From Desulfuromonadaceae bacterium (GTDB lineage Bacteria > Desulfobacterota > Desulfuromonadia > Geobacterales > Pseudopelobacteraceae), in assembly GCA_028712665.1 (NCBI GenBank), contig JAQTRC010000009.1, forward strand, positions 1-49,539: a stretch of DNA of 49,539 bases, in the 5' to 3' direction. A program made the position numbers and the translations under genes. The notes under the pieces are model-generated. The model saw only the letters and a list, made by a program, of their open reading frames with translations. It searched no databases and was not told where the DNA came from. Of the stretch, positions 3,361-38,423 are shown one piece after another; position 1 is the stretch's first letter, and each line of letters opens with the position of its first letter.

Positions 3361-5226
3361 TCATTTCATAAATTCTATCGCCGTCGATGTAATACCTGCG
3401 GCATCAATTCCTACATCCCTGCGCAATTGGGCCTGGCTTCCCTGCTCGATGTAGCGGTCCGGAATGCCGAGACGCCTGACCTTTATATCCTGCATCCCAT
3501 TATCATACAGAAGCTCGAGTACGGCGCTGCCGAAACCACCCTGCAGGGCATTTTCCTCAACCGTCATGATGCACCCGGTTTTGCGGGCGGCTGAAAGGAT
3601 CAGATCAGTATCGAGCGGTTTTACGAACCTGGCATTTATAACGCCTGCGTCAATCCCGTTCAACTTGAGAGTTTCAGCCGCTTCTAACGCGGGATAAACC
3701 GTTGCTCCGATAGCGATGATGGTCAGATCCCGCCCATCCGACAAAAGTTCTCCCTTTCCGATTTCCAGGGACTTTAGTCCGGCATCCAGCTCAACACCGT
3801 AACCCGCTCCGCGCGGATAACGAAGCGCCATTGGAACACCGGAATATACTGCGGTCTTCAGCATGTGACGCAATTCGTTCTCATCCTTGGGCGCCATCAG
3901 CGTAATTCCGGGTAAGTGGCGCAGATAAGAGAGGTCAAAAACGCCATGATGGGTCGGACCATCATCGCCCACCAGACCGGCGCGATCCATCGCAATTGTC
4001 ACTGGAAGCATCTGCAGACAGATATCGTGGAAAACCTGATCGTAGGCGCGCTGGACAAATGTGGAATAAATGGCGGCCACCGGCCGGTATCCTTCCGCAG
4101 CCATGCCGGCGGCAAAGACCAAGCCGTGCTGTTCGGCTATACCTACATCAAAAAAGCGTTTCGGGAAGCGCCTGGAAAAGTTGTTGAGCCCTGTACCATC
4201 CGGCATGGCGGCGGTTATTGCTACTATTTTAGGGTCTTCTTCGGCCATCAGAACTATTGTTTCGCCAAACACGTCGGTGTACGACTTGTTTGAGGCCTTG
4301 ACGGCCCCCTTGCCTGTGGCGATATCAAAAGAGCCCACACCATGGTATTTGTCGGGCGTATCTTCTGCAGGCTTGTAACCCTTGCCCTTGGTCGTCATAA
4401 CATGGACCAGCAGCGGTCCATCCAACTCATTGATGTTGTTGAACACATCCAGCAACTGGGGAAGATTGTGCCCATCCAGCGGCCCGACATAATCGAAGCC
4501 CAGAGCATCAAACAGGGCGCCTGGGGTCAGGAAGCTCTTCAGTGAGTTTTCGGCTCTGCGCGCAAAATGGAGAATATCGGTGCCGATAGCCGGGATGTGC
4601 TTAAGTAATCCCTGCATCTCCTTTTTCAGATCACGAAAGTAGCGGCCTGTCATTTTGCGCGAGATAAATGCTGAAAAAGCGCCCACATTCTTCGAGATCG
4701 ACATCTCATTGTCATTTAAGATAACAATGAGATTCTTTTTGAGATGGCCTGCCTGATTGAGCGCCTCAAAAGCTATTCCCCCAGTCATTGAACCATCGCC
4801 GATTACGGCTATGGAGTGATTCTTGGTGCCGGACAAACAGGAAGCGGTAGCCATGCCAAGTCCGGCCGAGATGGAGGTCGATGAATGTCCTACACCAAAG
4901 GCGTCGTGTTCAGACTCACTCCGCTTAGGAAAACCGGAAAGCCCCTTGTACTGGCGCTGTGTAATAAAGCGATCTCTCCGCCCGGTCAGGATCTTGTGGG
5001 TATAGGCCTGGTGACCAACGTCCCAGATTATTTTGTCGTTTGGCGAGTCAAAGCAGTAATGCAGGGCGATAGTCAATTCGACCGTTCCCATATTTGATCC
5101 AAGATGTCCGCCGGTAATGGAGACCGTCTCAAGAAGAAATTTTCGGACCTCCTCCGCCAAGGCCGGCAGCTGCTCCGGCTTAAGTTTTTTGAGGTCCGAG
5201 GGGCTGTTGATCTTTTCAAGTAACAT
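3361..5226 (-). CDS. dxs: 1-deoxy-D-xylulose-5-phosphate synthase
   Basis: This 621-residue thiamine-diphosphate enzyme condenses pyruvate with glyceraldehyde 3-phosphate, the first step of the methylerythritol phosphate pathway to isoprenoids. Visible landmarks are G-G-H-L-G-S-N near the N terminus, the ThDP/Mg motif G-D-G-S-M-T-G-G with a downstream N-D-N, and the catalytic-Glu segment G-I-A-E-Q-H-G. The C-terminal transketolase-like domain is complete. I use the ATG at 5226 because AAGGGTGA lies just upstream; an in-frame ATG six codons earlier lacks such a site. The gene lies downstream of hpnA and shc, so precursor supply and hopanoid synthesis are physically grouped. Confidence 0.96.
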
Positions 5227-5288
5227 AGTTTCACCCTTCATCATTCAAACAAAAAACGATGAGAGTTGAGAGATGGGAAAGCAAAATT

Positions 5289-6392: not shown

Positions 6393-8435
6393 CTATTTAA
6401 ACTGCTCCGCAGTCAGACGGCGATACTTTCCAAGTGCGGTCAACGGGAAGCAGTTGCGATAAATATGGTACTTTATCATGAAAAACTTGGGGAATCCGGT
6501 GCCGGTAAAAGCATCCTCATCCCAGGTGCCGTCCTGTTTCTGGGTAGCCAGCAAATAGCCAATTCCCCGTGTAGCCGCTTCCGAAGAGGCCTCGCCTGCT
6601 GCAAATAGTGATAATAGAGCCCAGCTTGTCTGGGACGCCGTACTAGGGCCACATCCCATTAAAGAGCGGTCGCCGTACGACTCGCACACTTCACCCCAGC
6701 CTCCATCAATATTCTGCTTGGATTTCAGCCAATTAACCGACTTTTTTATGTAAGCTTGAGACATATCCTCGCCGATCGCCTCCAGGCCGCACAAAACCGA
6801 CCAGGTGCCATAGATGTAGTTGACGCCCCATCTGCCCCACCAGGGTCCCTCAGGCTCCTGCTCGATTTTGAGGAACTCCAGAGCCTGAACAGCCGCCTTA
6901 TCCGTTTTGGGGTAGTTGAAATTTCCCATCAACTCCAGCATTCGTCCTGTAAGATCAGCTGTTGGCGGGTCAATTAACGCCTCAAGGTCGGCAAAAGGAA
7001 TCTTGTTCAGAAGGTACTTTGTATTATTTTTGTCAAAAGCAGCCCATCCGCCGTTATTGCTCTGCAATCCGAGGCACCAGGAAATACCGCGCTTAATGGC
7101 CTGTTCCTTATGTTTTTTGTCGCGGACTTTTATATCTTTTATAGCCAGCATTACGAAACCGGAATCGTCCACATCCGGATACCAGTCGTTCAGGAACTCA
7201 AAAGCCCACCCTCCGGGTTCCAGTTCAGGGGATTTGACCTGCCAATCTCCCTTGCGGCGAACCTCCAGGTCGAGCAACCACTGGGCCGACAACACCAAAG
7301 CCGGATGGTCTGTCGGGACTCCCGCCTCCTGCATGGCCACAAGCACGAGCGCCGTATCCCATACAGGAGAAACACACGATTGCAAAACCAGGCTCTCATC
7401 ATCTTCAATACAGAAATTTGCCAAGGCTTCCAGCCCCTTTACAACTGCAGGATGGTCATTGGCATACCCCAAACAGTGAAGAGCAAGAACAGAATTGAGC
7501 ATCGCCGGCTGGATGCCACCCCAGTCACCGCTCGGTTCCTGATGTTCAAGAATCCACTGTTCAGCAACCGTAACCGACTTTTTCTTGAAGAGTCTTAATG
7601 GAGATGACTCGTAGACCTTGAGCAGGTGGTCAACGCCGATAAAAAAGTTCTTCCAGGTAAGGATTCCGTCTTCCTTGGTAAAAGTATAATCGGTCGGCCG
7701 TGGCGGACGAACAAAAAGCTCCTGAACACGGGCGGATGGGGGAAGCCTGCGAACCGGCCTTTCGGACATGACTACAGAGAGTGGAATGATGGTAGCACGC
7801 GACCAGCTCGACAATTCGTACATGTTGAAATATGCCCAGTTGGGGAGCAGCATAAGTTCAATCGGCATGGATGGAACTCCCATCCATGAATATTCGCCGA
7901 AAAGAGCCAGAAATACCTTGGTAAAAACTCGGGCCTTAAGAATGCCGCCATTGGCGAGGATAAAATCGCGGGCTCTAATCATTGCGGGATGATCTGCTGA
8001 ATAACCGGCAAGCTTTAGAGCAAAATAGGATTCGATAGTGGTTGAAAGATCGCCGGGACCACCGAACCATATGGACCATGATCCATCTTCTGTCTGCTTT
8101 GAGAGGATATATCTGGCCATCTTCCGCTCACGAATCTTGTCTACCATGCCGAGGAAATGGAACAGCATGATATATTCGGAAGTGATCGTAGTATTGGACT
8201 CAAGCTCCGCCCACCAGTAACCACCAGGCAACTGCTCACGGAAAAAGAAATCGCGTGTTCTCTCGACCGCCTTGTCGAGCGGACTTTTTGCCTCTCCAAC
8301 CATCTTTTTCCAGATTGATGGCGGCAGATGGTGAACTTTACCCGGAATTTTCCGGCTTGGATCTACAACAGGCTCAGTAGTCTCGGTATTTAAAGATGTC
8401 AGGGCGGATGAAATTGGATATTTACCTGAACTCAT
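6393..8435 (-). CDS. shc: Squalene-hopene cyclase
   Basis: This 680-residue cyclase converts squalene to hopene/hopanol, the committed step to bacterial hopanoids, as a monotopic membrane protein. The protonating motif D-V-D-D lies near residues 421-424, and several QW-type repeats (Q-x-x-x-G-x-W, for example Q-E-P-S-G-D-W, Q-N-I-D-G-G-W and Q-K-Q-D-G-T-W) are spread through the double alpha-barrel. The length matches the family. I start it at the ATG at 8435 because GGAG lies 6 nt upstream; reading further upstream would add 35 mostly hydrophobic residues with no ribosome site. It is the first gene of the minus-strand isoprenoid block and ends in its own terminator. Confidence 0.95.
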   Translation of the reverse strand: MSSGKYPISSALTSLNTETTEPVVDPSRKIPGKVHHLPPSIWKKMVGEAKSPLDKAVERTRDFFFREQLPGGYWWAELESNTTITSEYIMLFHFLGMVDKIRERKMARYILSKQTEDGSWSIWFGGPGDLSTTIESYFALKLAGYSADHPAMIRARDFILANGGILKARVFTKVFLALFGEYSWMGVPSMPIELMLLPNWAYFNMYELSSWSRATIIPLSVVMSERPVRRLPPSARVQELFVRPPRPTDYTFTKEDGILTWKNFFIGVDHLLKVYESSPLRLFKKKSVTVAEQWILEHQEPSGDWGGIQPAMLNSVLALHCLGYANDHPAVVKGLEALANFCIEDDESLVLQSCVSPVWDTALVLVAMQEAGVPTDHPALVLSAQWLLDLEVRRKGDWQVKSPELEPGGWAFEFLNDWYPDVDDSGFVMLAIKDIKVRDKKHKEQAIKRGISWCLGLQSNNGGWAAFDKNNTKYLLNKIPFADLEALIDPPTADLTGRMLELMGNFNYPKTDKAAVQALEFLKIEQEPEGPWWGRWGVNYIYGTWSVLCGLEAIGEDMSQAYIKKSVNWLKSKQNIDGGWGEVCESYGDRSLMGCGPSTASQTSWALLSLFAAGEASSEAATRGIGYLLATQKQDGTWDEDAFTGTGFPKFFMIKYHIYRNCFPLTALGKYRRLTAEQFK

Positions 8436-8662
8436 CAATAACTCCACACATGCCAAAAACCAGGCGATGTTAAAAATTTTAAGAGGGATCAAACTCTGCC
8501 TTCGTATCATATAAATAAAAAAGAGTACATTCTTTTTCAAATTTAGTTACACAATACAGTAGTATGCCGGAGATGATGCAAATCTGATTTGCCTGCCTGC
8601 TCTCCATTGTGATATAAGGGGCGAGCTTGATTACCCCTATTCATAAGGAGACCGTCCCCATC

Positions 8663-21851: not shown

Positions 21852-23231
21852 TCAGTATCCAATTTTTAACCGTTTGATCTTTTCTACCAGCGTAGTCCGG
21901 TTGATACCCAGCATAGAGGCAGCTCTGGACTTGATCCCATTGGAGCATTCCAAAGACTGAACTATCAATTTTCGTTCAAGATCACGCAACGTAACCTCCA
22001 TATCGATGCCATCTCCCGGCAACTCAAAATCAACAAAATTCCCGCCTGCTTTTTCAGCCGCTATCCCGGCCGGAATGTCATCCATGGTTATTACCGAGCC
22101 ATCGGTCAGTGCAATCATACGTTCAACAAGATTCTCAAGCTCACGGACATTTCCCGGCCAGGAGTATCTCTCCAGCGCCTCAAAAGCCCGTTTATCGACC
22201 GTCATGTTCAGACGCCCCATCAGTCGTCCCTGTTTTTCAAGAAAGTGTATGACCAGAGGCATAATGTCCTGTTTGCGTTCTCGAAGCGGCGGAAGGTGCA
22301 GAGGGATAACATTCAGGCGGTAGAAAAGGTCTTCACGAAATTCACCAAGTTTCACCTTGTTTTCAAGATCCAGATTCGTAGCCGAAATAACCCTGACGTG
22401 GAGTTTCACCGGTTTGTTGGATCCAACCCGTTCCACCTCCTGCTCCTGCAATACCCGCAAAAGCTTGGTTTGCAGGTGCAGAGGCATGGTGCCTATCTCG
22501 TCCAGAAAGATTGTTCCATGATTGGCAGCCTCGAATTTCCCTGCCTTATCTTTGATAGCCCCGGTGAATGCCCCCCGCACGTGACCGAACAGTTCGCTCT
22601 CCATCAATGCCTCAGGTATGGCGCTGCAATTCACCGCAACAAAAGGGCGTTCTCTCCGGTTGCCGTTGTAGTGAAGGGCACGGGCGACCAGCTCTTTTCC
22701 GGTACCGGAATCGCCGGTGATAAGAACCGTCGAATCGGTCTTTACGATACGTGTCATTCTTTCAAAAACAAGCTTCATTGAGGGAGAGTTGCCGATGATA
22801 TTACTGAATTCAAACCTGTCCCGAAGCTGGTTGCGAAGGTAGATGTTCTCGGAGAGAAGCTGCTGTTTTTCTAAAGCCTTGGCAACAACTATTCTCAGTT
22901 CATCAAAATCAATAGGCTTGGTAATATAGTCGAAGGCGCCTTCTTTCATGGCCCGGACAGCCGTTTGAGCGGAGGCATGGCCGGTTACTACAATAACTTC
23001 GGTGGTAGTTGCTACCTTTCTGACACTCTGCAAGATATCAAGACCACTTTTATCCGGCAGGAAAAGGTCGGATACTATAACCTGAAACTGCTCACGGTCG
23101 ATGATATCCAGTGCCTCTTCACCGCTGGCGGCTGAGATTACTTTGTATCCCGCAGAGCGGAGCAGTAAAGTCAGCGCTTCACGCCCGGAATCATCATCGT
23201 CTATAACCAGAATTTTGATCTCATCCGCCAT
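21852..23231 (-). CDS. Sigma54-dependent NtrC-family response regulator
   Basis: This 459-residue regulator has an N-terminal receiver with phospho-acceptor Asp in V-S-D-L-F-L-P-D-K-S-G (near residue 54). Its central AAA+ domain has Walker A G-D-S-G-T-G-K-E, the sigma54-contacting G-A-F-T-G-A loop and Walker B I-F-L-D-E-I-G. A C-terminal Fis-type helix-turn-helix ends in A-A-S-M-L-G-I-N-R-T-T-L. All catalytic motifs are intact, so it should activate sigma54 promoters when phosphorylated. No histidine kinase is adjacent, and its target genes are not evident here. Confidence 0.93.
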   Translation of the reverse strand: MADEIKILVIDDDDSGREALTLLLRSAGYKVISAASGEEALDIIDREQFQVIVSDLFLPDKSGLDILQSVRKVATTTEVIVVTGHASAQTAVRAMKEGAFDYITKPIDFDELRIVVAKALEKQQLLSENIYLRNQLRDRFEFSNIIGNSPSMKLVFERMTRIVKTDSTVLITGDSGTGKELVARALHYNGNRRERPFVAVNCSAIPEALMESELFGHVRGAFTGAIKDKAGKFEAANHGTIFLDEIGTMPLHLQTKLLRVLQEQEVERVGSNKPVKLHVRVISATNLDLENKVKLGEFREDLFYRLNVIPLHLPPLRERKQDIMPLVIHFLEKQGRLMGRLNMTVDKRAFEALERYSWPGNVRELENLVERMIALTDGSVITMDDIPAGIAAEKAGGNFVDFELPGDGIDMEVTLRDLERKLIVQSLECSNGIKSRAASMLGINRTTLVEKIKRLKIGY

Positions 23232-29153: not shown

Positions 29154-30080
29154 TTATTCAACCGTATAAATCCGCAATGCACCATCCAGGCAAAATTCAG
29201 AGCAAAGCCCGCAGCCTGTGCAAAGTTCCTGGATAAAATTCGGGATAGTATCAGATGATTCAGCCTGCAAGGCGCCTGTGGGGCATATAGCAACACACCC
29301 CTGGCATCCAGTACAGGTTTCAGCAAATGAGACACTGTAATCGAAATGCTTCTGCATCCGTGACACAAATTCCTGAGAGGAATTGTTTCTGGTATTGTTC
29401 AGCAATTCTCTTCTAAGCGGCAGACGTTTCCCGGCATATTCGGTTCGACGTTCGGCCTGTTGGTTGCTGCCGGAAAGAATCACGACGGCGCTCTGAAACA
29501 GGGAAGTACGAAAAGACTTGAAGAAACTCCGGCGTCCTACAGATTCATCATGGTAATTAATGTCTTGTGCGGATTCTGCCATGAAGATGCTACAACCGCC
29601 ATCCAGTAATCCTGCGCCCAAAAGCAGTGCAAGACGTTGACGCAGATAGGGAAGCATGGCGCTGTTTGGACAACCGGAGCATCTGCTCATGTTAAGGGTC
29701 AGTTTCCCGGACAGAGATTTGCTGAGAGTTACCAGATGTTCTTCTGAAAGCCCACCCAGGCAAGCCAAAATGCCGTTGGAGCACTCTTTAGTCCGGTTGC
29801 AGCCAAGAACCGGTTCTGGTACTCGAGACAACTGCGCCACGCAGACGGAATAATCGTTATTCTGTTCCAATGCGCCTACCGGACAGACAGCAGTACAGAG
29901 CAGGCAACCGCAGCAATGTTCCGGATTAATAGTGAGGCCGTTCTCCAGTTTAACGGACCTATGCGGACAGATATCTTGGCAGCGCCGACACCCGCTTTCG
30001 CTATAGCGCATCCGGAGGCAACGGGAAGAGTCCACCAAGAGGTCATCCATGTTGCCGGTAACAGTTTCGCTGTCAGTCAT
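29154..30080 (-). CDS. Multi-cluster 4Fe-4S protein of the molybdoenzyme locus
   Basis: This 308-residue cysteine-rich protein has no signal peptide and so should be cytoplasmic. Ferredoxin motifs occur at both ends: C-x2-C-x2-C-x3-C-P forms C-C-G-C-L-L-C-T-A-V-C-P near residue 57, and C-T-G-C-Q-G-C-V-A-I-C-P and C-T-G-C-G-L-C-S-E-F-C near the C terminus. A further C-R-R-C-Q-D-I-C-P lies near the N terminus, and other cysteines occupy the middle. It overlaps the torD-like gene by ATGA. It may pass electrons during cofactor insertion or act as a maturation ferredoxin; its exact role is unknown. Confidence 0.8.
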   Translation of the reverse strand: MTDSETVTGNMDDLLVDSSRCLRMRYSESGCRRCQDICPHRSVKLENGLTINPEHCCGCLLCTAVCPVGALEQNNDYSVCVAQLSRVPEPVLGCNRTKECSNGILACLGGLSEEHLVTLSKSLSGKLTLNMSRCSGCPNSAMLPYLRQRLALLLGAGLLDGGCSIFMAESAQDINYHDESVGRRSFFKSFRTSLFQSAVVILSGSNQQAERRTEYAGKRLPLRRELLNNTRNNSSQEFVSRMQKHFDYSVSFAETCTGCQGCVAICPTGALQAESSDTIPNFIQELCTGCGLCSEFCLDGALRIYTVE

Positions 30081-30715
30081 TGTTCACACAATTTTAGTGC
30101 AGTATAATCGGCGATGATGAAAGCGGAGCTACAGCGCGAGATAGCCTGGTAGAACGGAGCTTCGCCATCGTTGATAATGGCTGTTGTAAACGGCTCCAGC
30201 CATGGCATCAGGAACCTGCCTAAAAACTCAAGTTGCAAAGACACGATACGGGCCACTTCATCCGTATCGCCAGAAACCTCCGCCTCCCGTTGTTTGAAAG
30301 CCAGGAATGACATGAACTCAAGCTCTACAGCAAAATGATCCGGCAGTTCATAAAAGTCATCGGCCAAATGCAGGCCGCAGGAGTTGTAGAAGGCCGCTAC
30401 TCTGGCGGTCGAGTCACCCATGACGGTTTTGGCATCATCAAGATATATCGAACCATATGGCGGCGCGGCAAGCTGGAAGGGACCAATGAACAGGCGGGCA
30501 TGCTCAACAGCCAGGGATTCTGGCGACTCATTTATCATGGCATCTGATGCCTCACGCGCATATCGCGCTGTATCCAGAGTTACAGGCTCCAGTAGAGCTG
30601 CAAGCGTTGCACAACAGTTCTCCTCGAACAATGCTGTTGATGGTGGATAGAAACAGGCCGCCAGAAGGCGGTAGACATCTTCGCGTGTTGCACTGATAGT
30701 TTGAATTTTGCTCAT
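30077..30715 (-). CDS. TorD/DmsD-family molybdoenzyme chaperone
   Basis: This 212-residue all-helical protein matches TorD-type chaperones that bind the Tat signal of a molybdoenzyme and guard it until the cofactor is inserted. Conserved features are E-H-A-R-L-F-I-G-P-F-Q with A-P-P-Y-G-S-I-Y-L, and L-P-D-H-F-A-V-E-L-E-F-M. AAGGA lies 6 nt before the ATG. It lies downstream of the catalytic and Fe-S subunits on the same strand, but a hairpin terminator separates it from them. Confidence 0.88.
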   Translation of the reverse strand: MSKIQTISATREDVYRLLAACFYPPSTALFEENCCATLAALLEPVTLDTARYAREASDAMINESPESLAVEHARLFIGPFQLAAPPYGSIYLDDAKTVMGDSTARVAAFYNSCGLHLADDFYELPDHFAVELEFMSFLAFKQREAEVSGDTDEVARIVSLQLEFLGRFLMPWLEPFTTAIINDGEAPFYQAISRCSSAFIIADYTALKLCEQ

Positions 30716-30728
30716 ATATAATCCTTAC

Positions 30729-30763
30729 AAAAAAGAGGGATGGGACTTACGCCCCACCCCTGT
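30729..30763 (-). terminator. Internal terminator between the Fe-S subunit and torD-like genes
   Basis: On the minus strand AGGGGTGGG pairs with CCCATCCCT (one G-T pair) around GCGTAAGT, followed by C and six T (plus A run 30729-30734). The next gene begins 14 bp later. It probably sets lower expression of the chaperone and ferredoxin relative to the enzyme subunits. Confidence 0.8.
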
Positions 30764-30793
30764 AATATTACACCAACTCAAAACTACAAACCA

Positions 30794-31564
30794 TCAAACT
30801 TTACCCCCGCCTTTGAAAGCCCGGATGTAGGCTACGTTCGGCCTGGTCTTCTTCTCTTCCTTGAGGCGCATCGGTTTATACTTCTTCAGCAACTTGGCCG
30901 GTTCGCTGGCCGCATCGTTGACATCGCCGAAAATGCGGGCCTTGGCGGGGCAAGCGGCAACGCAATTAGGCTGTTCTCCCTTGGCCACCCGGTGAGCGCA
31001 GAAGATGCACTTCTCAACCAGACCCTGTTTGCGGATACTCTCGTAATCCGGATGAGCATACTTGTTCTGGTTCGGAATGACTGCTCCCGCTGCCTTCGCG
31101 GTTTCCGCGCCTGAGGCGGTGCATCCCTTGATCATCTCGGTGGTGTCGCGAGAGGCGGCATGGGGCGCCGCCGTGCCGTTGTTGCAACTGATAACCGAGT
31201 AAGCAGCATTATCCTTGATCACATCCGTTGCGCTGTATGGGCAGGCTTTCTGACAGCGGCGGCAGCCGATGCAGCGTTCGTCGTTGTGCATGGTGATGCC
31301 GTCGGCGGTCTTGTACATCGCCTTATTCTTGACCGGACAGGCCTTGACACAAGGCGCGTCGGCGCAGTGATTGCAGAGCACCGGTATGGCTGTGTAACTC
31401 GGATTCGGGAATTTACCCTCTTCCCTGTAGATAAAATCGGCCCAGTTGAATGTCTGGCCATTGGCCCGGGCCTGGGTGTTGTTCTCGGTTTTGCAGGCCA
31501 GGGCGCAAGCACCGCAGCCGACACATTTTTGCAGATCAATGACCATTCCGTATTGTTTTGCCAT
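30794..31564 (-). CDS. Four-cluster Fe-S electron-transfer subunit (DmsB/PsrB/ArrB type)
   Basis: This 256-residue protein has the four cysteine groups of the DMSO-reductase beta subunit family: C-V-G-C-G-A-C-A-L-A-C, C-N-H-C-A-D-A-P-C-V-K-A-C-P, C-I-G-C-R-R-C-Q-K-A-C-P and C-I-F-C-A-H...C-V-A-A-C-P. Together they would hold four 4Fe-4S clusters linking the molybdenum site to the electron donor. It has no signal peptide and would be exported bound to the Tat-tagged catalytic subunit. GGGGGGA lies upstream of the ATG, and the gene is 19 nt after the catalytic subunit gene. An Ala/Thr-rich insertion sits between the third and fourth groups. Confidence 0.92.
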   Translation of the reverse strand: MAKQYGMVIDLQKCVGCGACALACKTENNTQARANGQTFNWADFIYREEGKFPNPSYTAIPVLCNHCADAPCVKACPVKNKAMYKTADGITMHNDERCIGCRRCQKACPYSATDVIKDNAAYSVISCNNGTAAPHAASRDTTEMIKGCTASGAETAKAAGAVIPNQNKYAHPDYESIRKQGLVEKCIFCAHRVAKGEQPNCVAACPAKARIFGDVNDAASEPAKLLKKYKPMRLKEEKKTRPNVAYIRAFKGGGKV

Positions 31565-31583
31565 TTAATATATCCCCCCTTTC

Positions 31584-34154
31584 CTAAGCTTTCTCAATCT
31601 TGACACCGGTAAAACCACCATTACGGGCAGTAGCTCCGCTCAGACGATCATAGTTATCCGGCATCAGTTCGTTGTTATTGCCGCCGCGCGGTTTCTTGCC
31701 GTACTCCTTGGCGGCAACCCGACCGTACGCCCAATGTCCCTGACCGTAACACTTTGCCACGGTACCGGGGCGGACACCTTCCCAAAGGCGAATATTGCAG
31801 GTGATAGAACCGTTGACCGAGGTGAGACGGACAGCATCTCCATCCTTGAGTCCCAGTTTCTTGGCATCAATCGGGTTGATTTTGGCAACGTCATCCCAGC
31901 TCTTGTCGCCAACGTCAACTTTCTTGAACTCATGATACCAGACCGTGTTCTGGCTGCGACCTTCACGGTTAAGGCGCGATTTGTGGTCGATAAAGGTAAA
32001 GGGGTACTCTTTCTCGCTGCCGCGACGCACCGGTGATTCGTAGTGCGGCACAAACGCCAGTTCGCCGCGAGCCTCGTACTCACTACCCTTTAGAATTTCA
32101 TCAATGGTGGTCTTGTGTTTTGCCGCAAAGAGCGACAAGGTTTTTTTCAAGGTTTCACTGTAGAACTCGAACTTATGGGTAACCGTCTTGAATTTGCCCC
32201 AGTTCTTTTTGTACTTGTAGGTTTCGGTGTTGTAGATACCCTTTTTCTTGAAATCAGCCCAACCTGTAAGCTTGTCACCTTTCTGTTTCTCCTTGCCGTC
32301 CCACACCACGGAACTGGAGATTTTAGCGGCAATTTCGCAGAACTCGGCGGCGTTGGTCGGCTTCTTTTTGGTTTCCGGATCTTCAAAGGATGCATAGTAA
32401 TCATACAGATTTGCAAAGCCCCTGGCTTTCAGCTTCTCTGCCAGCAGCCACATCACTTCAGTTTCTTCCGCTTTGACACCCCACAGCGGTTTGGCAACCG
32501 GCTGTTGAATGGAAACATGACCGTGCAGATTCGCCATGTTGGTGATAATGGAGAGCTTTTCGGTCGGAGCAAATGTTGACGGCAGTACGATATCGGCAAA
32601 CTGGGTCAGTTCCGACGCATTGGTAACCATGTGAACGAAGAACGGCACCGCTGCCATAGCTTTTTCCCAGCGCTGGGCGCCAGTTGCAGAGAACGCAAAG
32701 TTGCTCCAGGTGCTTATAAAGACCTTGCAGGCATCCGGATTTTTCAGCATGCCGGTGGCAACGTAGTTGGTGACAACGTTAGCCTTCGGTTTTTCTTCCT
32801 TGACCTTGCCATCCTTGTCCTTGATGGTGTCAAACCCGCCCATGATTGCCGGCATATCTTTGGAACCGCGACCATCCAGCTTTTTGCCGTGACCATGGTG
32901 CTCGGCAAGTTCATCGATGAATTTTTTCGCATCGGGAAACTTGGTGGTTGGTGAACTGGAGGACTGGAACACTCCCCCTTCCGTTTCTATCGAGCCTAGA
33001 ATACCGTTCAACGCATACACCGCCATGGCAGCATATGTGCCGCGAACCTGCATGGCAGCCCCCGGCCCCATCCAGACGGCACAGGCGGAACCGGCCTTGC
33101 CCATGGTGCGGGCGACACGGATAATCTGTTCAGCCGGAATCAGGCATTTTTGGGCTGCCCAGGCCGGTGTTTTGTCTTTCAGTTCCAGATTCCAGTATTT
33201 GACAATACCGTGGGTCTCTTTCTCGACAAAAGCTGCTTCATCAACGGTTTTACCGGCAAAGAACAGGTTCTTGCCATCCTTGAAATCACCGACAAAAACC
33301 TTGCTCCAGAGTCCTTCGGTCAAAAGAACATGGGCGATTGCCGATGCCAGCGCGCCATCCTCACCCGGCTTGAGCGGCAGCCACTCATTAGCCTTGGCAG
33401 CAGAGGCAGAAAGGCGCGGATCGACGGCGATCACCGAACCACGATCAAAAATATCGCCGAATTTGTTGATGGCATTTGGTACCTGCCGGTTGGAGGAGAG
33501 CGGGTCACAGCCCCAGATAACTAGGCACTTGGTCTTGGCCAGATCGTAGTCACGATAGCCGAAGAAACCTTGGGTGTAGCCAGGCCCCATTTTCTCCGCT
33601 TCTGCACAGATGGCGCTGTGGGAGAAGTAGTTCGGGGTGCCGAAAACTTTGGGTAGGGTTCCGTAGAGAAGCTCGGTAGATGTAGGGGAGTAGCGACCGC
33701 GCATATATACGAGTTTTTCCGGTTCCTTGTTCTTGCGCAGTTCGATCATCTTATCGGCGATGGTATCCAGCGCCTCGTCCCATGAAATCGGCACAAACCT
33801 GGGATCAATGCCGCGTCCCTTAGCGGGGTTGGTACGCTTCATCGGCACCTTGATCCGGTCAGGATCGTAGGTCTGCTGGATCATCAGGTGACCGCGGGGA
33901 CAGACATAGCCGTTGTTGGCCTTACTGAGCTGGTTGCCGCGCACCTTGACAATACGCCCTTCCTGCACATAAAACTCCACCGGGCACCAGGCGGTGCACC
34001 CCTGGCAGGTTGATGGTATCCACTCTCCCTTGGGCGCATCACCGCTCTTCGGCAGATGGCTGGCGGCAAAAGCATTCAGCTTCGGCAGCCCGATCGTCGC
34101 CACTGCGCCGGCCGCAGCGGTAATCTTGAGAAAATCTCTACGTTTGATTTTCAT
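31584..34154 (-). CDS. Periplasmic molybdopterin oxidoreductase catalytic subunit, ArrA/PsrA branch
   Basis: This 856-residue protein has a Tat signal (R-R-D-F-L-K at 5-10, cleavage near A-F-A-A-S). A 4Fe-4S motif C50-x2-C53-x3-C57-x27-C85 follows, then the molybdopterin domains of the DMSO-reductase family. A cysteine, C183 in S-H-S-A-I-C, is in the molybdenum-ligand position. R154, Y155, H179, S180, K188 and Y200 fall at spacings like those I recall for the arsenate-contacting residues of Shewanella ArrA, with a constant offset of 10-11. Length also fits ArrA (about 850). Polysulfide, thiosulfate or tetrathionate reductase relatives are not excluded. A PhnD-type oxyanion sensor upstream fits an oxyanion substrate. 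No arsenic resistance genes are present in the window. Confidence 0.85.
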   Translation of the reverse strand: MKIKRRDFLKITAAAGAVATIGLPKLNAFAASHLPKSGDAPKGEWIPSTCQGCTAWCPVEFYVQEGRIVKVRGNQLSKANNGYVCPRGHLMIQQTYDPDRIKVPMKRTNPAKGRGIDPRFVPISWDEALDTIADKMIELRKNKEPEKLVYMRGRYSPTSTELLYGTLPKVFGTPNYFSHSAICAEAEKMGPGYTQGFFGYRDYDLAKTKCLVIWGCDPLSSNRQVPNAINKFGDIFDRGSVIAVDPRLSASAAKANEWLPLKPGEDGALASAIAHVLLTEGLWSKVFVGDFKDGKNLFFAGKTVDEAAFVEKETHGIVKYWNLELKDKTPAWAAQKCLIPAEQIIRVARTMGKAGSACAVWMGPGAAMQVRGTYAAMAVYALNGILGSIETEGGVFQSSSSPTTKFPDAKKFIDELAEHHGHGKKLDGRGSKDMPAIMGGFDTIKDKDGKVKEEKPKANVVTNYVATGMLKNPDACKVFISTWSNFAFSATGAQRWEKAMAAVPFFVHMVTNASELTQFADIVLPSTFAPTEKLSIITNMANLHGHVSIQQPVAKPLWGVKAEETEVMWLLAEKLKARGFANLYDYYASFEDPETKKKPTNAAEFCEIAAKISSSVVWDGKEKQKGDKLTGWADFKKKGIYNTETYKYKKNWGKFKTVTHKFEFYSETLKKTLSLFAAKHKTTIDEILKGSEYEARGELAFVPHYESPVRRGSEKEYPFTFIDHKSRLNREGRSQNTVWYHEFKKVDVGDKSWDDVAKINPIDAKKLGLKDGDAVRLTSVNGSITCNIRLWEGVRPGTVAKCYGQGHWAYGRVAAKEYGKKPRGGNNNELMPDNYDRLSGATARNGGFTGVKIEKA

Positions 34155-34178
34155 TTATGTTCCTCCCTTGCGTGATAA

Positions 34179-34481
34179 TTATTTATGACAGTTCTTACAG
34201 TCTCCCTTGACGGAGAAGGCTGTTTTGCCGTTGTGGCAGGCGCCGCACGACTTGCCCTGCTGCATCTGCTTCATGGTGACTTTTTTGTGCTGTGCGCTGG
34301 TGGTGAAGAGCCCGTCGTGGCACTTGGTGCACTCCAGCCCCATGCCAACGTGGTTGTCGTGACTGAAAACCACCTCTCCCTTTTTGGACTTGATGGCGAC
34401 ATCGCCGCCACCAACCGTGGCAAAGGCTACGCCCACCACAAGCAGGTAAAGACATGCCATTTCTGCAACGATAAGTTTCAT
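34179..34481 (-). CDS. Periplasmic c7-type triheme cytochrome
   Basis: This 100-residue protein has a signal peptide (cleavage near V-A-F-A) and three CXXCH heme sites: C-T-K-C-H, C-G-A-C-H and C-K-N-C-H at the very end. Extra histidines in F-S-H-D-N-H would be distal ligands. The size and spacing fit the c7 triheme cytochromes of Geobacter-type bacteria, which shuttle electrons through the periplasm. AAGGAGG lies upstream of the ATG. It is the first gene after the control region, 24 nt before the catalytic subunit gene, and probably feeds electrons to the enzyme's Fe-S subunit. Confidence 0.92.
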   Translation of the reverse strand: MKLIVAEMACLYLLVVGVAFATVGGGDVAIKSKKGEVVFSHDNHVGMGLECTKCHDGLFTTSAQHKKVTMKQMQQGKSCGACHNGKTAFSVKGDCKNCHK

Positions 34482-34520
34482 CCTGTTCCTCCTTTATTCT
34501 GGTCTAGAAAAATCTGAGTG

Positions 34521-34550
34521 AATATAACACAACATGTATGCATATTGCAA
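34521..34550 (-). promoter_or_regulatory. Candidate sigma70-type promoter of the cytochrome-molybdoenzyme operon
   Basis: On the minus strand TTGCAA (34545-34550) and TATATT (34521-34526) lie 18 bp apart, about 40 bp before the cytochrome start. I found no GG-N10-GC sigma54 pair in this region. The hexamers are moderate matches only. Confidence 0.45.
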
Positions 34551-34576
34551 CTATATGTTTTTATTAAATATTTTCA

Positions 34577-34592
34577 GTTACGATGCCGTAAC
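34577..34592. promoter_or_regulatory. Palindromic site 1 upstream of the cytochrome operon
   Basis: GTTACG-ATGC-CGTAAC is a perfect 6-bp dyad with a 4-bp spacer, 27 bp upstream of the candidate -35. It is a plausible binding site for the adjacent response regulator. Confidence 0.6.
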
Positions 34593-34708
34593 AAGCGTTA
34601 TTTTTGGATCTGTTCGGGAAGGATTCCGACTAACGGCATTACCTTGTCGGAGGCATGAATATCCGTAGAAAAACTGAGCCTGCAGAGTTTTCAGGAGAGA
34701 ATTACGAT

Positions 34709-34724
34709 ATTACGATTGCGTAAC
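34709..34724. promoter_or_regulatory. Palindromic site 2 upstream of the cytochrome operon
   Basis: ATTACG-ATTG-CGTAAC matches site 1 in 13 of 16 positions and keeps the dyad with one mismatch. An extra ATTACG half-site lies next to it at 34701. The centres of the two sites are 132 bp apart. Confidence 0.6.
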
Positions 34725-34742
34725 ATGGGGAAAGCAGAGGGA

Positions 34743-36095
34743 TCAGCTCTGTCGTTTGAGTTTTTCCCACAACACCTTTCGAGAGAGCCCCAGAACCTCT
34801 GCAGCCCTCCCTTTTTGTCCCCCCAGACTCTCCAGGACACGTTTTATGTAGCGCATTTCAAAAAAGTTGACCGCATCTTTCAGTGGCATTCCGACCTGAA
34901 TTCTTTCAAACAGGGTGCCCATGTCCAAGGATGATTCAGTCTGTGGGGGGAGGTGGTGTTCACGGAGTGTCTGGCCGGGGTAGAGAAGAGAAAGCTGTTC
35001 GATCAGATTTGACAGTTCCCGTATATTACCGGGCCAGGGAAGCAGCATCAAACGGTCCAGCAGTTCAGGTGAAAGCTGCACGCGGCTCTGTTCATTCCTT
35101 GCGAACTGATTGACGAAGTGGGCCGCAAGCAGGGGAATGTCCTCACGACGCTCTCTGAGCGACGGAACGTGGAGGGTGACCACGTTGACCCTGTAGTAGA
35201 GATCTTTCCGGAAGAAGCCGTCGCAGACCATTGTTTTAAGATCCTGCGCCGTGGTACAGATCAGACGGAAATCAAGTTTTCTTGCCGATGTACCGCCCAC
35301 CCGACAGCAGGCCATCTCTTCGAGAGCTCTTGCCAAAGTTGCCTGGACAGTCAAAGGGAGTTCATCAATTCCATCAAATAGGAGCGTTCCTCCGTGCGCA
35401 CTCTCCAAAAGTCCCGGTTTGCCGCGATCAGCAGTGGGGGTAGATCCCTTTTCCACTCCGAAAAGTTCTTCTTCCAGTACAGATGCGGGGATCGCTGCAC
35501 AGTGAACCCGAACCAGCGGGCCGTTTTTTCGTGTACTCGTGGCGTGAATAGTTTCGACCAGAAGTTTCCTGCCGGTCCCGCTCTCACCATGCAGCAGCAG
35601 TGACACGTTACTTGCGGCAACAACTGCCACCGTATCAATCAATGATCGCATCGTCGCAGAGCGGGTGATGATGCGGGGCTGACGGATTGTGCGGTCAGAA
35701 GAAAGCTGTTCAAGTTGTTTTTCAAGGTTGCGGTAGTCGAGCACCCGTTCCAGCTTCATCATCAGCAGGTTCACGTCGAAGGGTTTGGTGAGAAAGTCGC
35801 AGGCTCCGAGCTTCATGGCCCGCACCGCCATCTCCACCGTCCCCTGTCCGGTCATCACCAAGGCTTGGCAGCCTGGTTGACGGCTAAGCACGGTGCGCAG
35901 AATATCAAGCCCATCGGCATCAGGCAGTTTGACATCCTGCAACAGCAGATCAAACGATTCATCGCTGATCGCCTCAAGGGCGCTTGCGGCACTGTCGGTC
36001 CAGCGCACCTGGTAACCGTTGGTGGTGAGGGCTTCCTGGAGCGCCTCACCCAGCAGCGGATCGTCCTCAACCAGCAATAGCTTGAATTTCTGCAC
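34743..36095 (-). CDS. NtrC-family response regulator with degenerate AAA+ motifs
   Basis: This 450-residue regulator has a normal receiver (D54 in L-L-Q-D-V-K-L-P) and a Fis-type DNA-binding end (A-A-E-V-L-G-L-S-R-K-V-L-W). The central AAA+ domain is decayed at the key points. Walker A reads G-E-S-G-T-G-R, with R176 in place of lysine. The sigma54 loop G-A-F-T-G-A reads G-S-T-P-T-A (217-222). Walker B reads F-D-G in place of F-D-E (241-242). It should therefore not drive sigma54 open-complex formation, and it may act on sigma70 promoters as some NtrC relatives do. The GTG start at 36095 has CGGAGGT 5 nt upstream and overlaps the kinase gene by 29 bp. Confidence 0.88.
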   Translation of the reverse strand: MQKFKLLLVEDDPLLGEALQEALTTNGYQVRWTDSAASALEAISDESFDLLLQDVKLPDADGLDILRTVLSRQPGCQALVMTGQGTVEMAVRAMKLGACDFLTKPFDVNLLMMKLERVLDYRNLEKQLEQLSSDRTIRQPRIITRSATMRSLIDTVAVVAASNVSLLLHGESGTGRKLLVETIHATSTRKNGPLVRVHCAAIPASVLEEELFGVEKGSTPTADRGKPGLLESAHGGTLLFDGIDELPLTVQATLARALEEMACCRVGGTSARKLDFRLICTTAQDLKTMVCDGFFRKDLYYRVNVVTLHVPSLRERREDIPLLAAHFVNQFARNEQSRVQLSPELLDRLMLLPWPGNIRELSNLIEQLSLLYPGQTLREHHLPPQTESSLDMGTLFERIQVGMPLKDAVNFFEMRYIKRVLESLGGQKGRAAEVLGLSRKVLWEKLKRQS

Positions 36096-37560
36096 TGCAG
36101 ACCTCCGGGGTATTCTGTGGGATGACAACCGTGAAGACTGTTTCTCCGGAACTGCTGGTGACCCCTATGGAGCCTCCGTGCATCTCAACGATGCTCTTGC
36201 AGACGGCAAGACCGATGCCGGTTCCCTTGCCTGCTTGCTTGGTGGTGTAGAAGATGTCGAATATCCGATCAAGCTCTGTTGCCTGGATGCCGCAACCGTT
36301 ATCCCTTACCTCGATATGGTAGAAAGAATCCTTGCAGTATGCTTTGAACAGGACAACATCACCAGATTGAGAGGCATCGGAGGCGTTTATCAGCAGATTT
36401 AGGATCACCTGCTGCATCTTCCCTTTGTCCAGAGACAAAGGACAAGAGAGATGGCAATCATCCTCTGTCACAAGTCTTACTGAATGTTTGCTGAGCGCAA
36501 TTTTTGCAAATTCGGCACTTTCCGTAAAGAAGCGACTGCTGTCGATCTGTTGCAGATCAAGTGACCCGGCCCGGCTAAAATCATTTAACTGGCTTACTAT
36601 CCGCCTGATCCGCTCTGCCCCCTGCTTTATGATATCCAGGTTACGGTTCGGGGCTCCGTTTTCCTGCTCCAGATTGTAAATGCAGGTGCCTATTGTGGCC
36701 AGCGGGTTATTGACCTCGTGGGCCACCCCTGCCACAATCTTACCGATTGAAGCCATCTTTTCGCTCTGTATAAGCTGCACAACCATCCGTTCGCGCTCCC
36801 CTTCGCTACGACGCAGCCGTTCGAGCATTTCGCGAAAACTCTCCTGGAGAACACCGATCTCGTCATTTCTCGGCTCCGGCAGTTCAATGGTCAAAGTTTG
36901 AGGGTTGATCTCCGACATTGCCCCTGCAAGATTCTGAATCGGCCGGGTTATTGTCTGGCCGACAAAGTAGAAGAGAAGCGTGCCGGCAAGGAAAAACAGG
37001 GCTGAGAAGGATACAACCTTGAATCCCATCATGTAGAGTTCACGTTCGAGCGGTTTCATGGAAATCCCTATTCTCAGGGTTCCCCAGCTCTTGCCGTAGA
37101 TACTGAGCGGCATCGCAACATCCAGGATATTCTCGTGCGTTACCGCATCAAGGACCATTCTGGAAATAAACGAATCCCCCATCAAAGCTTCGCGCGTGAG
37201 ATCATCGGTAATAGTATGGCCATATTCCATGTAGTGGTTATGGGCAAGTACTTTGCCCTTGTCATCGGTCACAAAGGCGTACAGAGCCGGGAAATCTTTG
37301 TTAGCTACGATTTCCTCGACAAAATTATCAAGCAGCCCCCCCTCTTCGATAACCCCCATTTCCTCATACACAAGTGCATTGATGATCGGTGTCCTGAGCG
37401 AGGTGGCCATGCTGCGGGCGTTACTTACCAGACGATCATAGAGGAGCCGATTCTCGTTGCGCCATGCCCAGCTTCCCCAGATTATGGAGGAAATTGCAAC
37501 GATAAGCGCTGCAGTCAGGACAAACTTCCCCTTTATCCCCGGAATGAAGCGCCCCCTCAT
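36067..37560 (-). CDS. Membrane sensor histidine kinase (partner of the oxyanion-binding protein)
   Basis: This 497-residue kinase has two membrane segments (about 12-33 and 185-208) flanking a periplasmic sensing domain. A HAMP linker (T-R-P-I-Q-N-L-A) follows, then the phospho-acceptor helix V-A-H-E-V-N-N-P-L and an ATPase domain with N-L-L-I-N-A-S-D-A, D-N-G-C-G-I and G-T-G-I-G-L-A. The NtrB-like H-E-x-N-N-P type pairs with NtrC-type regulators. The ATG at 37560 overlaps the stop of the binding-protein gene as ATGA. The three genes are therefore one X-S-R unit, with the periplasmic protein probably presenting ligand to the kinase. Confidence 0.92.
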   Translation of the reverse strand: MRGRFIPGIKGKFVLTAALIVAISSIIWGSWAWRNENRLLYDRLVSNARSMATSLRTPIINALVYEEMGVIEEGGLLDNFVEEIVANKDFPALYAFVTDDKGKVLAHNHYMEYGHTITDDLTREALMGDSFISRMVLDAVTHENILDVAMPLSIYGKSWGTLRIGISMKPLERELYMMGFKVVSFSALFFLAGTLLFYFVGQTITRPIQNLAGAMSEINPQTLTIELPEPRNDEIGVLQESFREMLERLRRSEGERERMVVQLIQSEKMASIGKIVAGVAHEVNNPLATIGTCIYNLEQENGAPNRNLDIIKQGAERIRRIVSQLNDFSRAGSLDLQQIDSSRFFTESAEFAKIALSKHSVRLVTEDDCHLSCPLSLDKGKMQQVILNLLINASDASQSGDVVLFKAYCKDSFYHIEVRDNGCGIQATELDRIFDIFYTTKQAGKGTGIGLAVCKSIVEMHGGSIGVTSSSGETVFTVVIPQNTPEVCSAEIQAIAG

Positions 37561-38423
37561 CGATGACACTTGTAACCGCACCCTGACGGAATGTCGCGCA
37601 TCATACTGAAGATCATCCGATAGTCATCGGAATTCGCTTCAGCGAAACCGAATTTGAACTCGTCATCCCAGTTGGCCATGATCTTTTTGTGTTCGGAATT
37701 GTTCCGGTCGAGCTTCAGCAGCGCCTGCTTAACGGCTTTGATGAACTCAGGTGGAGCTTCTTTCCTGACCACAAACGGGACCGATGGAAGAAAGTCTGAA
37801 TAGGCCAGCACCCTTAAACCATGGCTCATGTATTTATTAGCAATCACATCCTTGACTGCGCCTGCGTCGTACTGTCCTTTCAAAATTGCCTTGGCAACTG
37901 CGTCATGGTGTTTCAGATTGGTTATGGAGGCCAGCTCCTGGAGCCGGATTCCGTTGTTCCACAACATGTAGCGGGGGATAAGATTACCGGAGGTAGAGTG
38001 GGGCGAACCGAAAACCATGTTTTTACCCTTGATTTCATGCAACGATTTCAGCGGCGAATTTTTCGACACGATGATGGCGGAACGATAGAAAGGGATACCA
38101 TCGTGATTGAGCGGTTTCAGGATCGGAATTGCACCGTAGAGTGTGCTCGCTTCGGTGAAGGTTACATCCCCCAGTGAACTGATCTGAGTTATCCCGTCCT
38201 TGAGAAATCTTACCGCCTCCGGGTAATCGCGGCTGATCTTCAGTTCGAAGCGGTAGGGGGTGTTCTGGGTGAGGTAGTCCATGATCGGCTGGTATCGCTT
38301 GTACATGACCACCGGGTTGTAACGGGGAATTACGCCGAAGCGGATGACCGGTTTGTCGGCGGCGAAAAGTGGAATCGCCAGCGTGAAAAGCAAAGCGGAT
38401 AAAACGGTTACGGCAAGCTTCAT
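37557..38423 (-). CDS. PhnD-family periplasmic oxyanion-binding sensor protein
   Basis: This 288-residue protein begins with a signal peptide (cleavage after I-P-L-F-A) and has the two-lobed PhnD/phosphonate-binding fold. The anion loop S-P-H-S-T-S-G-N and K-D-G-I-T-Q-I-S...D-V-T-F are visible. No ABC permease or ATPase is present; the next gene is a sensor kinase, as in AioX-AioS and ArxX-ArxS. It therefore probably reports a tetrahedral or related oxyanion. The mature chain has only two cysteines, both at the end in C-G-Y-K-C-H-R, and so lacks a mid-chain cysteine like that reported for AioX. The start is the ATG at 38423; 41 more residues could be read upstream but contain no signal-like start. 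Confidence 0.85.
   Translation of the reverse strand: MKLAVTVLSALLFTLAIPLFAADKPVIRFGVIPRYNPVVMYKRYQPIMDYLTQNTPYRFELKISRDYPEAVRFLKDGITQISSLGDVTFTEASTLYGAIPILKPLNHDGIPFYRSAIIVSKNSPLKSLHEIKGKNMVFGSPHSTSGNLIPRYMLWNNGIRLQELASITNLKHHDAVAKAILKGQYDAGAVKDVIANKYMSHGLRVLAYSDFLPSVPFVVRKEAPPEFIKAVKQALLKLDRNNSEHKKIMANWDDEFKFGFAEANSDDYRMIFSMMRDIPSGCGYKCHR

Follow-up and report, generated by a model that had tools for sequence, protein, structure and literature searches.

Geobacter sp. OR-1, a paddy-soil isolate, respires arsenate, and arr genes have been described in G. uraniireducens Rf4 and G. lovleyi SZ, whose arsenate respiration was then unreported (PMC4319506). According to a passage in Duval et al. 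2008, the Arr operon of G. lovleyi SZ lacks arrC (PMC2500031). Other arsenic oxidoreductases come with a sensory triad of a periplasmic binding protein (X), a sensor kinase (S), and a response regulator (R), as in the ArrXSR-ArrAB system of Chrysiogenes arsenatis and in ArxXSR-ArxB2ABCD loci. Here we describe an arr locus with a triad in a 49,539-nucleotide stretch of DNA (the window) from a Desulfuromonadaceae bacterium (GCA_028712665.1, contig JAQTRC010000009.1). We estimate a probability of roughly 80% that this is a Geobacter-lineage arr locus whose triad likely senses arsenate and is predicted to switch on an operon (c7 cytochrome, arrA, arrB, torD, and an Fe-S protein gene) without sigma-54. 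As an enzyme, it is nothing unusual in Geobacterales, and in OR-1, G. uraniireducens, and G. lovleyi genes of its lineage already bear the name arr. The new part is the class of sensor, which also occurs in tandem form and is linked to electron conduits, together with a regulator predicted to work free of sigma-54.

The arr locus of OR-1 (NZ_BAZF01000005.1; L059 in our numbering of loci) resembles the window's in its ArrA, which is 81% identical, and in the order of its arrB, TorD, and Fe-S genes. It differs in having divergent arsR and acr3 genes where the window has the triad, and its c7 gene is a 3' remnant with a stop. The C. arsenatis system (ArrX structures 6x6b and 6xl2) also has a triad with a PhnD-fold X, and the two X proteins fold alike, but C. 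arsenatis ArrX has a cysteine at the position of AioX Cys106 and belongs to another class of X (the comparison covers ArrX alone). The ArxXSR loci of Sulfuricella (L137) and Cereibacter (L138), which we named by the gene order described in a passage of PMC6683785, share with the window the triad and the genes for the Fe-S protein, the A and B subunits, and TorD. Unlike the window, they have an ArxA in a clade apart, an NrfD anchor, and an X with the cysteine and without the tail described below. Finally, arr loci with a tandem ArrX in Nitrospirota and Desulfobulbales (e.g., L095 and L098) have a C-terminal domain of the same class as the window's X (class G; 37-48% identical) with the same CX3CH tail, and they share the dyad found in regulator-to-operon gaps. 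They differ in an extra N-terminal Cys-type domain, an intact GAFTGA motif in the regulator, and the absence of c7.

Judging from its sequence, the catalytic subunit is ArrA, not PsrA. The original prediction had left the enzyme between these two, but its best match among solved structures is Shewanella ArrA, at 895 bits versus 150 bits for a PsrA-type enzyme from Thermus, and it is 49% identical to the ArrA structure 6cz7. We collected 121 ArrA-family sequences and kept 83 for a tree, after dropping seven with fragments or internal stops (L163, L169, L172, L161, L093, L086, and L154) and those at least 88% identical to one that was kept. The window enzyme lies inside an Arr clade of 69 sequences with support of 100, while PhsA and a group of six that includes the Arx-layout loci L137 and L138 fall apart from it. 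(The tree was built by a quick method with SH-aLRT support values only and long-branch warnings, and it has no SrdA, AnrA, or TtrA reference.) The placement that the original prediction had proposed as a check thus comes out as Arr, and its broader claim of an oxyanion-respiration locus with an X-S-R triad is borne out. The motif RGRY, which we take to be an Arr signature, is kept in the window enzyme and found in 104 of the 121 sequences, whereas neither of the Arx loci nor the PhsA outgroup has it; we found no literature joining RGRY with ArrA and arsenate. The residues that presumably line the arsenate site of the ArrA structure are conserved as well. In addition, the enzyme has the Tat (twin-arginine translocation) signal, Fe-S motif, molybdopterin domains, and adjacent arrB by which a passage in PMC2500031 recognizes Arr.

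Arsenate is probably the substrate, given orthology to the OR-1 enzyme: at E <= 1e-30, the OR-1 genome has one ArrA-family match, which is this orthologue. (The ArrA of another genome, G058, is 86-87% identical.) The OR-1 enzyme scores 1007 bits against the NCBIfam ArrA model, so the model's cut-off of 1600 bits excludes the sole ArrA-family match of an arsenate respirer. The cut-off was reached by no genome in any of four sets (0/5, 0/1, 0/369, and 0/395), and automatic annotation will therefore miss this lineage (window 31584-34154 and L134).

The sensor belongs, by its sequence and position in a tree, to a second, separate class of X domain. A passage in PMC5908839 describes the AioX pocket as seven residues, including Cys106. 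The window's X keeps six of the seven and has glycine in place of Cys106 (class G, as opposed to the Cys-type class C). The two classes are separated by one change on the X tree, with support of 99 (long branches were flagged), and the window's X does not group with C. arsenatis ArrX and ArxX. For class assignments, the domains of tandem proteins were split, and only the N-terminal domain of a tandem X is Cys-type; L122, L092, and L119 are outside the whole-protein tree and inside the domain-split tree. Tandem X proteins, with a Cys-type ArrX-like domain followed by a class-G domain with a CX3CH tail, occur in seven arr loci (L086, L095, L098, L099, L100, L102, and L106). The tail itself is present in 120 of the 120 nearest homologues among the matches listed and in none of 10 single-domain Cys-type X proteins. 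We suspect that it provides a second, thiol- or heme-based input; the readings that we rank first are an unusually spaced attachment site for heme c and a dithiol that switches with redox state. Among 147 relatives, 33 have X at E <= 1e-50, and 23 of these also have ArrA; eight genomes with ArrA lack X at this threshold. We found no literature on ArrX together with Geobacter, which is our sole basis for regarding the class-G sensor as unpublished.

The regulator also departs from the usual type. Pfam finds the receiver, AAA, and Fis-type domains of R, in which the Walker A lysine is replaced by arginine, GAFTGA by GSTPTA, and the DE of Walker B by DG. (GAFTGA, Walker A, and Walker B are intact in another sigma-54-type response regulator of the window, at 21852-23231, which lies upstream of tRNA genes and has no relation to the arr locus.) GAFTGA was lost in seven regulators: those of the window, L024, L052, L054, L060, L130, and L222 (a further copy carried by the L130 genome). 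All seven have an altered Walker B pair, and in two (the window and L024) the Walker A lysine is altered too. In a tree of 29 sequences, the six other than L222 form one clade, or one change. The ratio of nonsynonymous to synonymous substitution rates (dN/dS) for the AAA domain is about 0.07-0.14 in three pairs from the window, L052, and L060 (four of nine cells gave no value), so the domain is still under purifying selection. We predict that R acts without the usual sigma-54 machinery. There is a precedent in NtrC from Rhodobacter capsulatus, an NtrC-type regulator that lacks the GAFTGA loop and works with sigma-70, but its pathway differs, and the window's R is changed in Walker A and Walker B as well. 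Both the sensor and the regulator thus differ from the ordinary AioXSR or ArxXSR type to which the triad had been likened. Separately, the regulator of the Arx-layout triad on a Cereibacter plasmid (L138, 5495-6727) also lacks the GAFTGA stretch, apparently by an independent loss.

Between the regulator and the operon are two dyads resembling GTTACG-N4-CGTAAC, both of which align with counterparts in L052 and L060. The 3.55-Mb assembly has two copies of TTACGN3TCGTAA, each of them upstream of the arr operon, and one copy of the reversed control. With one mismatch allowed, GTTACN6GTAAC occurs twice in the window versus 0.54 expected. We scanned 24 of 25 regulator-to-operon gaps (that of L068 is too short) and found the GTTAC-N6-GTAAC dyad in 16 of them, with 0.00-0.01 expected in each. 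A consensus scan found no sigma-54 promoter at the locus. Across loci, a sigma-54 element with up to two mismatches lies within 600 bp after the regulator in none of the seven with degenerate regulators and in 13 of 45 others (0.55 expected); with up to three mismatches, 21 of the 45 have one (3.95 expected). The window has a sigma-70-like candidate whose -35 block is conserved in L052 and L060.

The genomic context of arrA in relatives points to arsenic. The enzyme is found in 31 of the 147 relatives, and 131 of the 147 have a match to Acr3. In 18 of the 31, Acr3 is within 10 kb of arrA (coordinates were compared by hand), which is far above chance for genomes that span several megabases and have about one Acr3 gene each. 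The window's genome is among the other 13, some of them truncated by the end of a contig. We also surveyed 81 loci, of which 56 have at least 4.5 kb upstream: 26 close loci (ArrA identity of at least 76%) and 30 more distant ones. Genes were called by score thresholds, and weak X homologues were counted as absent. By this measure, 15 of the close loci have the triad, 16 have ArsR or Acr3, 21 have at least one of these, and five have neither; ArsR or Acr3 was found and the triad was not in six. The distant loci include eight with the triad, six with ArsR or Acr3, 12 with at least one, and 18 with neither.

The same survey bears on the cytochrome. Of the 26 close loci, 14 (L061 and L066 included) have a triheme c7 ahead of arrA; none of the 30 distant loci has one. 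In three of the close loci, and in L077, L079, and L096 (which have shorter upstream stretches), a ten-heme protein takes this slot; nine of the close loci have neither, and two distant loci have an eleven-heme protein there. In L041 (5361-6887), the only ten-heme cytochrome that was scanned with Pfam, the N-terminus is NapC/NirT. (We also saw a ten-heme cytochrome before arrA in L068, L070, L075, L077, and L079.) In OR-1, only the 3' end of the c7 gene is left, with a stop inside, between the divergent arsR and arrA; the remnant is the last 110 bases before 9001 of L059. The slot is empty in Trichlorobacter thiogenes (L089). The remnant and the empty slot led us to reject the idea that c7 is required, and the description of the enzyme as wired to a c7 cytochrome was too strong. 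The slot upstream of arrA is interchangeable, and c7 is probably an accessory electron feeder of ArrAB. A search of c7 against plasmids gave no match.

Several observations weigh against an arsenate-responsive, sigma-54-independent arr locus. The window's enzyme reaches 1037 bits against the ArrA model (its best NCBIfam model), below the cut-off, and the arrB product reaches 245 bits against the ArrB cut-off of 450. X lacks the pocket cysteine, and its best fold match is the phosphite-binding protein PtxB, tied with ArrX. We found no ars gene in the annotated flanks of the locus, and the single Acr3 of the genome, encoded on a different contig, shares only 32% identity with the Acr3 of a relative (L024). 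The looser dyad GTTACN6GTAAC reaches a count of two in 10 of 100 shuffles of the window, and 8 of the 24 regulator-to-operon gaps lack the dyad. The sigma-70-like promoter is a weak match, with two in the scanned stretch versus 0.7 expected. The sigma-54 contrast is weak as well: many close arr loci with an intact motif also lack a site, and we could not sustain a clean link between degeneration of the regulator and loss of the promoter. Finally, OR-1 has neither the triad nor an intact c7, so its growth on arsenate is uninformative about both.

What these observations leave room for differs from part to part. That the regulator still works with sigma-54, or is a repressor, with a degenerate AAA domain that is merely tolerated, is a minority possibility that we take seriously. 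Other arr regulators of Geobacterales keep GAYTGA and also have no sigma-54 site, so a missing site is not diagnostic, and the class-G R proteins beside electron conduits look intact. Against this, the window's R retains none of GAFTGA, the Walker A lysine, and the Walker B glutamate, and the loss of GAFTGA is shared by seven regulators, with the six on the tree in one clade. It is unlikely that the triad senses phosphate or phosphite and that the operon answers to phosphorus status instead of arsenate. The predicted fold of X matches ArrX and PtxB equally, PtxB is also its best sequence match, and the pocket of PtxB likewise has glycine; furthermore, according to a passage in PMC5908839, phosphate is also a ligand of C. 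arsenatis ArrX, bound 150-fold more weakly. But no gene in the locus was assigned to phosphorus, the triad adjoins arr in orthologous loci, often with arsR or acr3, and class-G triads also adjoin electron conduits.

Still less probable, in our view, is an enzyme with an Arr scaffold but a different oxyanion as its substrate (antimonate, selenate, or selenite). The score below the ArrA cut-off would fit this, and an antimonate reductase of Geobacter, AnrA of strain SVR, is cited in a passage of PMC13284237; we found no literature joining antimonate, Geobacter, and respiratory arsenate reductase. Set against it are the OR-1 orthologue, as the sole ArrA-family match of an arsenate respirer, and the arsR and acr3 neighbors in orthologous loci. 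Our scan of named loci, which kept 80 of 176 relatives found, also has none titled SVR, which is weak evidence. An arsenite oxidase (Arx) or a polysulfide or thiosulfate reductase (Psr/Phs) is hardly credible, even though a triad and an ArxB2-like Fe-S protein are common to Arx-layout loci. We rejected PsrA/PhsA on the tree and the match scores, and Arx on the enzyme's position outside the ArxA clade and the lack in the window of a gene for an NrfD anchor next to arrAB; RGRY also speaks for Arr.

Table 1. Features of the arr locus and its control region, in window coordinates.
Feature	Position	Strand	Evidence
X, PhnD-like periplasmic sensor, class G (Gly85 for AioX pocket Cys106)	37557..38423	-	Phosphonate-bd domain, pocket table, fold matches to PtxB and ArrX
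CX3CH tail of X, residues 282-287	37563..37580	-	homologue listing and group counts; near-invariant in alignment
S, sensor histidine kinase (sCache_3_2-HAMP-HisKA-HATPase)	36067..37581	-	Pfam
R, response regulator of the NtrC type whose sigma-54 AAA domain is degenerate	34743..36128	-	GSTPTA in place of GAFTGA, R for K in Walker A, DG for DE in Walker B
Control region between R and the c7 gene	34482-34742
Distal operator-like dyad, GTTACGCAATCGTAAT read on the minus strand	34709..34724	.	motif scans, alignment
Proximal operator-like dyad, GTTACGGCATCGTAAC read on the minus strand	34577..34592	.	motif scans, alignment
Sigma-70-like promoter candidate, TTGCAA-18-TATATT	34521..34550	-	weak scan match; -35 block kept in L052 and L060
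Triheme c7 cytochrome with signal-like N-terminus	34179..34481	-	TIGR04257, PF14522, solved c7-type domains
arrA, catalytic molybdoenzyme with Tat signal	31584..34154	-	Pfam, NCBIfam, solved-structure match, tree
arrB, Fe-S electron-transfer subunit	30794..31564	-	best NCBIfam model ArrB, 245 bits, cut-off 450
TorD-type chaperone	30077..30715	-	PF02613
ArxB2-like Fe-S protein	29154..30080	-	26% identity, E 1e-13, to Fe-S protein before ArxA in L137

All of the reading frames in Table 1 are open on the minus strand, in order from 38423 to 29154, and Pfam and NCBIfam give a family for each gene. Nine minus-strand genes had been proposed; the content, order, and strand stand, and the count is eight genes plus a control region. 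As for the suggestion of a variant system, it holds for the sensor and the regulator and not for the enzyme. The gene order recurs in many related genomes, so the arrangement is more than chance. The G+C content of the locus is 0.523 (0.515 for the window). Elsewhere in the window are genes for squalene-hopene cyclase (6393-8540) and DXP synthase (3361-5244), a hopanoid-type gene group, and a scan for RNAs found four tRNAs and no further Rfam match at gathering scores.

For the arr locus with an arsenate-sensing triad, which we favor, we propose the following mechanism. X would capture arsenate in the periplasm and then signal through S. Phosphorylated R would bind the two dyads and work at the sigma-70-like promoter, with a predicted start about 70 bp from the center of the proximal dyad; we place R at this promoter because the parts needed to drive sigma-54 appear to have been lost. 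TorD, and probably also the ArxB2-like Fe-S protein, would assist the maturation of ArrAB, which would be exported by Tat. ArrAB would then reduce arsenate to arsenite with electrons drawn from the pool of periplasmic cytochromes; c7 would be its dedicated feeder, though one that can be replaced.

Class-G triads are also found beside other outputs. Three distant ones (L206, L207, and L214) adjoin 5-heme, 660-residue, NHL, and 10-heme proteins (assigned by Pfam in L206 and by size and heme count in L207 and L214). Four others (L208, L209, L213, and L216) adjoin a DmsE-type decaheme cytochrome with an MtrB/PioB porin; Pfam identified both proteins in L208 and the porin in L209, and L213 and L216 were assigned by size and heme count. 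In L220, the triad adjoins a TtrA-like enzyme, which scores 557 bits versus that model's cut-off of 1750. Several pocket residues are lost in X of L212 and L221. Some of the loci with other outputs also have the GTTAC-N6-GTAAC dyad. A joint reading, which we hold tentatively and with more doubt than confidence, is that in Geobacterales a second class of sensor (PhnD-like, with glycine in its pocket and, at its C-terminus, a CX3CH switch based on heme or a dithiol) reads both the electron acceptor and the redox state of the periplasm, that the same family of triads drives arsenate reductases and outer-membrane conduits, and that the regulator in the window's lineage dropped sigma-54 and became a single-target activator.

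Sequences close to Geobacter arrA are frequently detected in arsenic-rich sediments (PMC4319506), so the switch that controls arr bears on the release of arsenic into groundwater. The natural variation among these loci (triad, ArsR, or both; c7, a decaheme, or neither) makes both regulation and the route of electrons comparable between strains. More broadly, this class of sensor offers a way into the question of how Geobacterales recognize the electron acceptor available to them: related triads are found next to arr, next to MtrB-type conduits, and next to a TtrA-like enzyme, and they share a conserved tail and, in part, a dyad.

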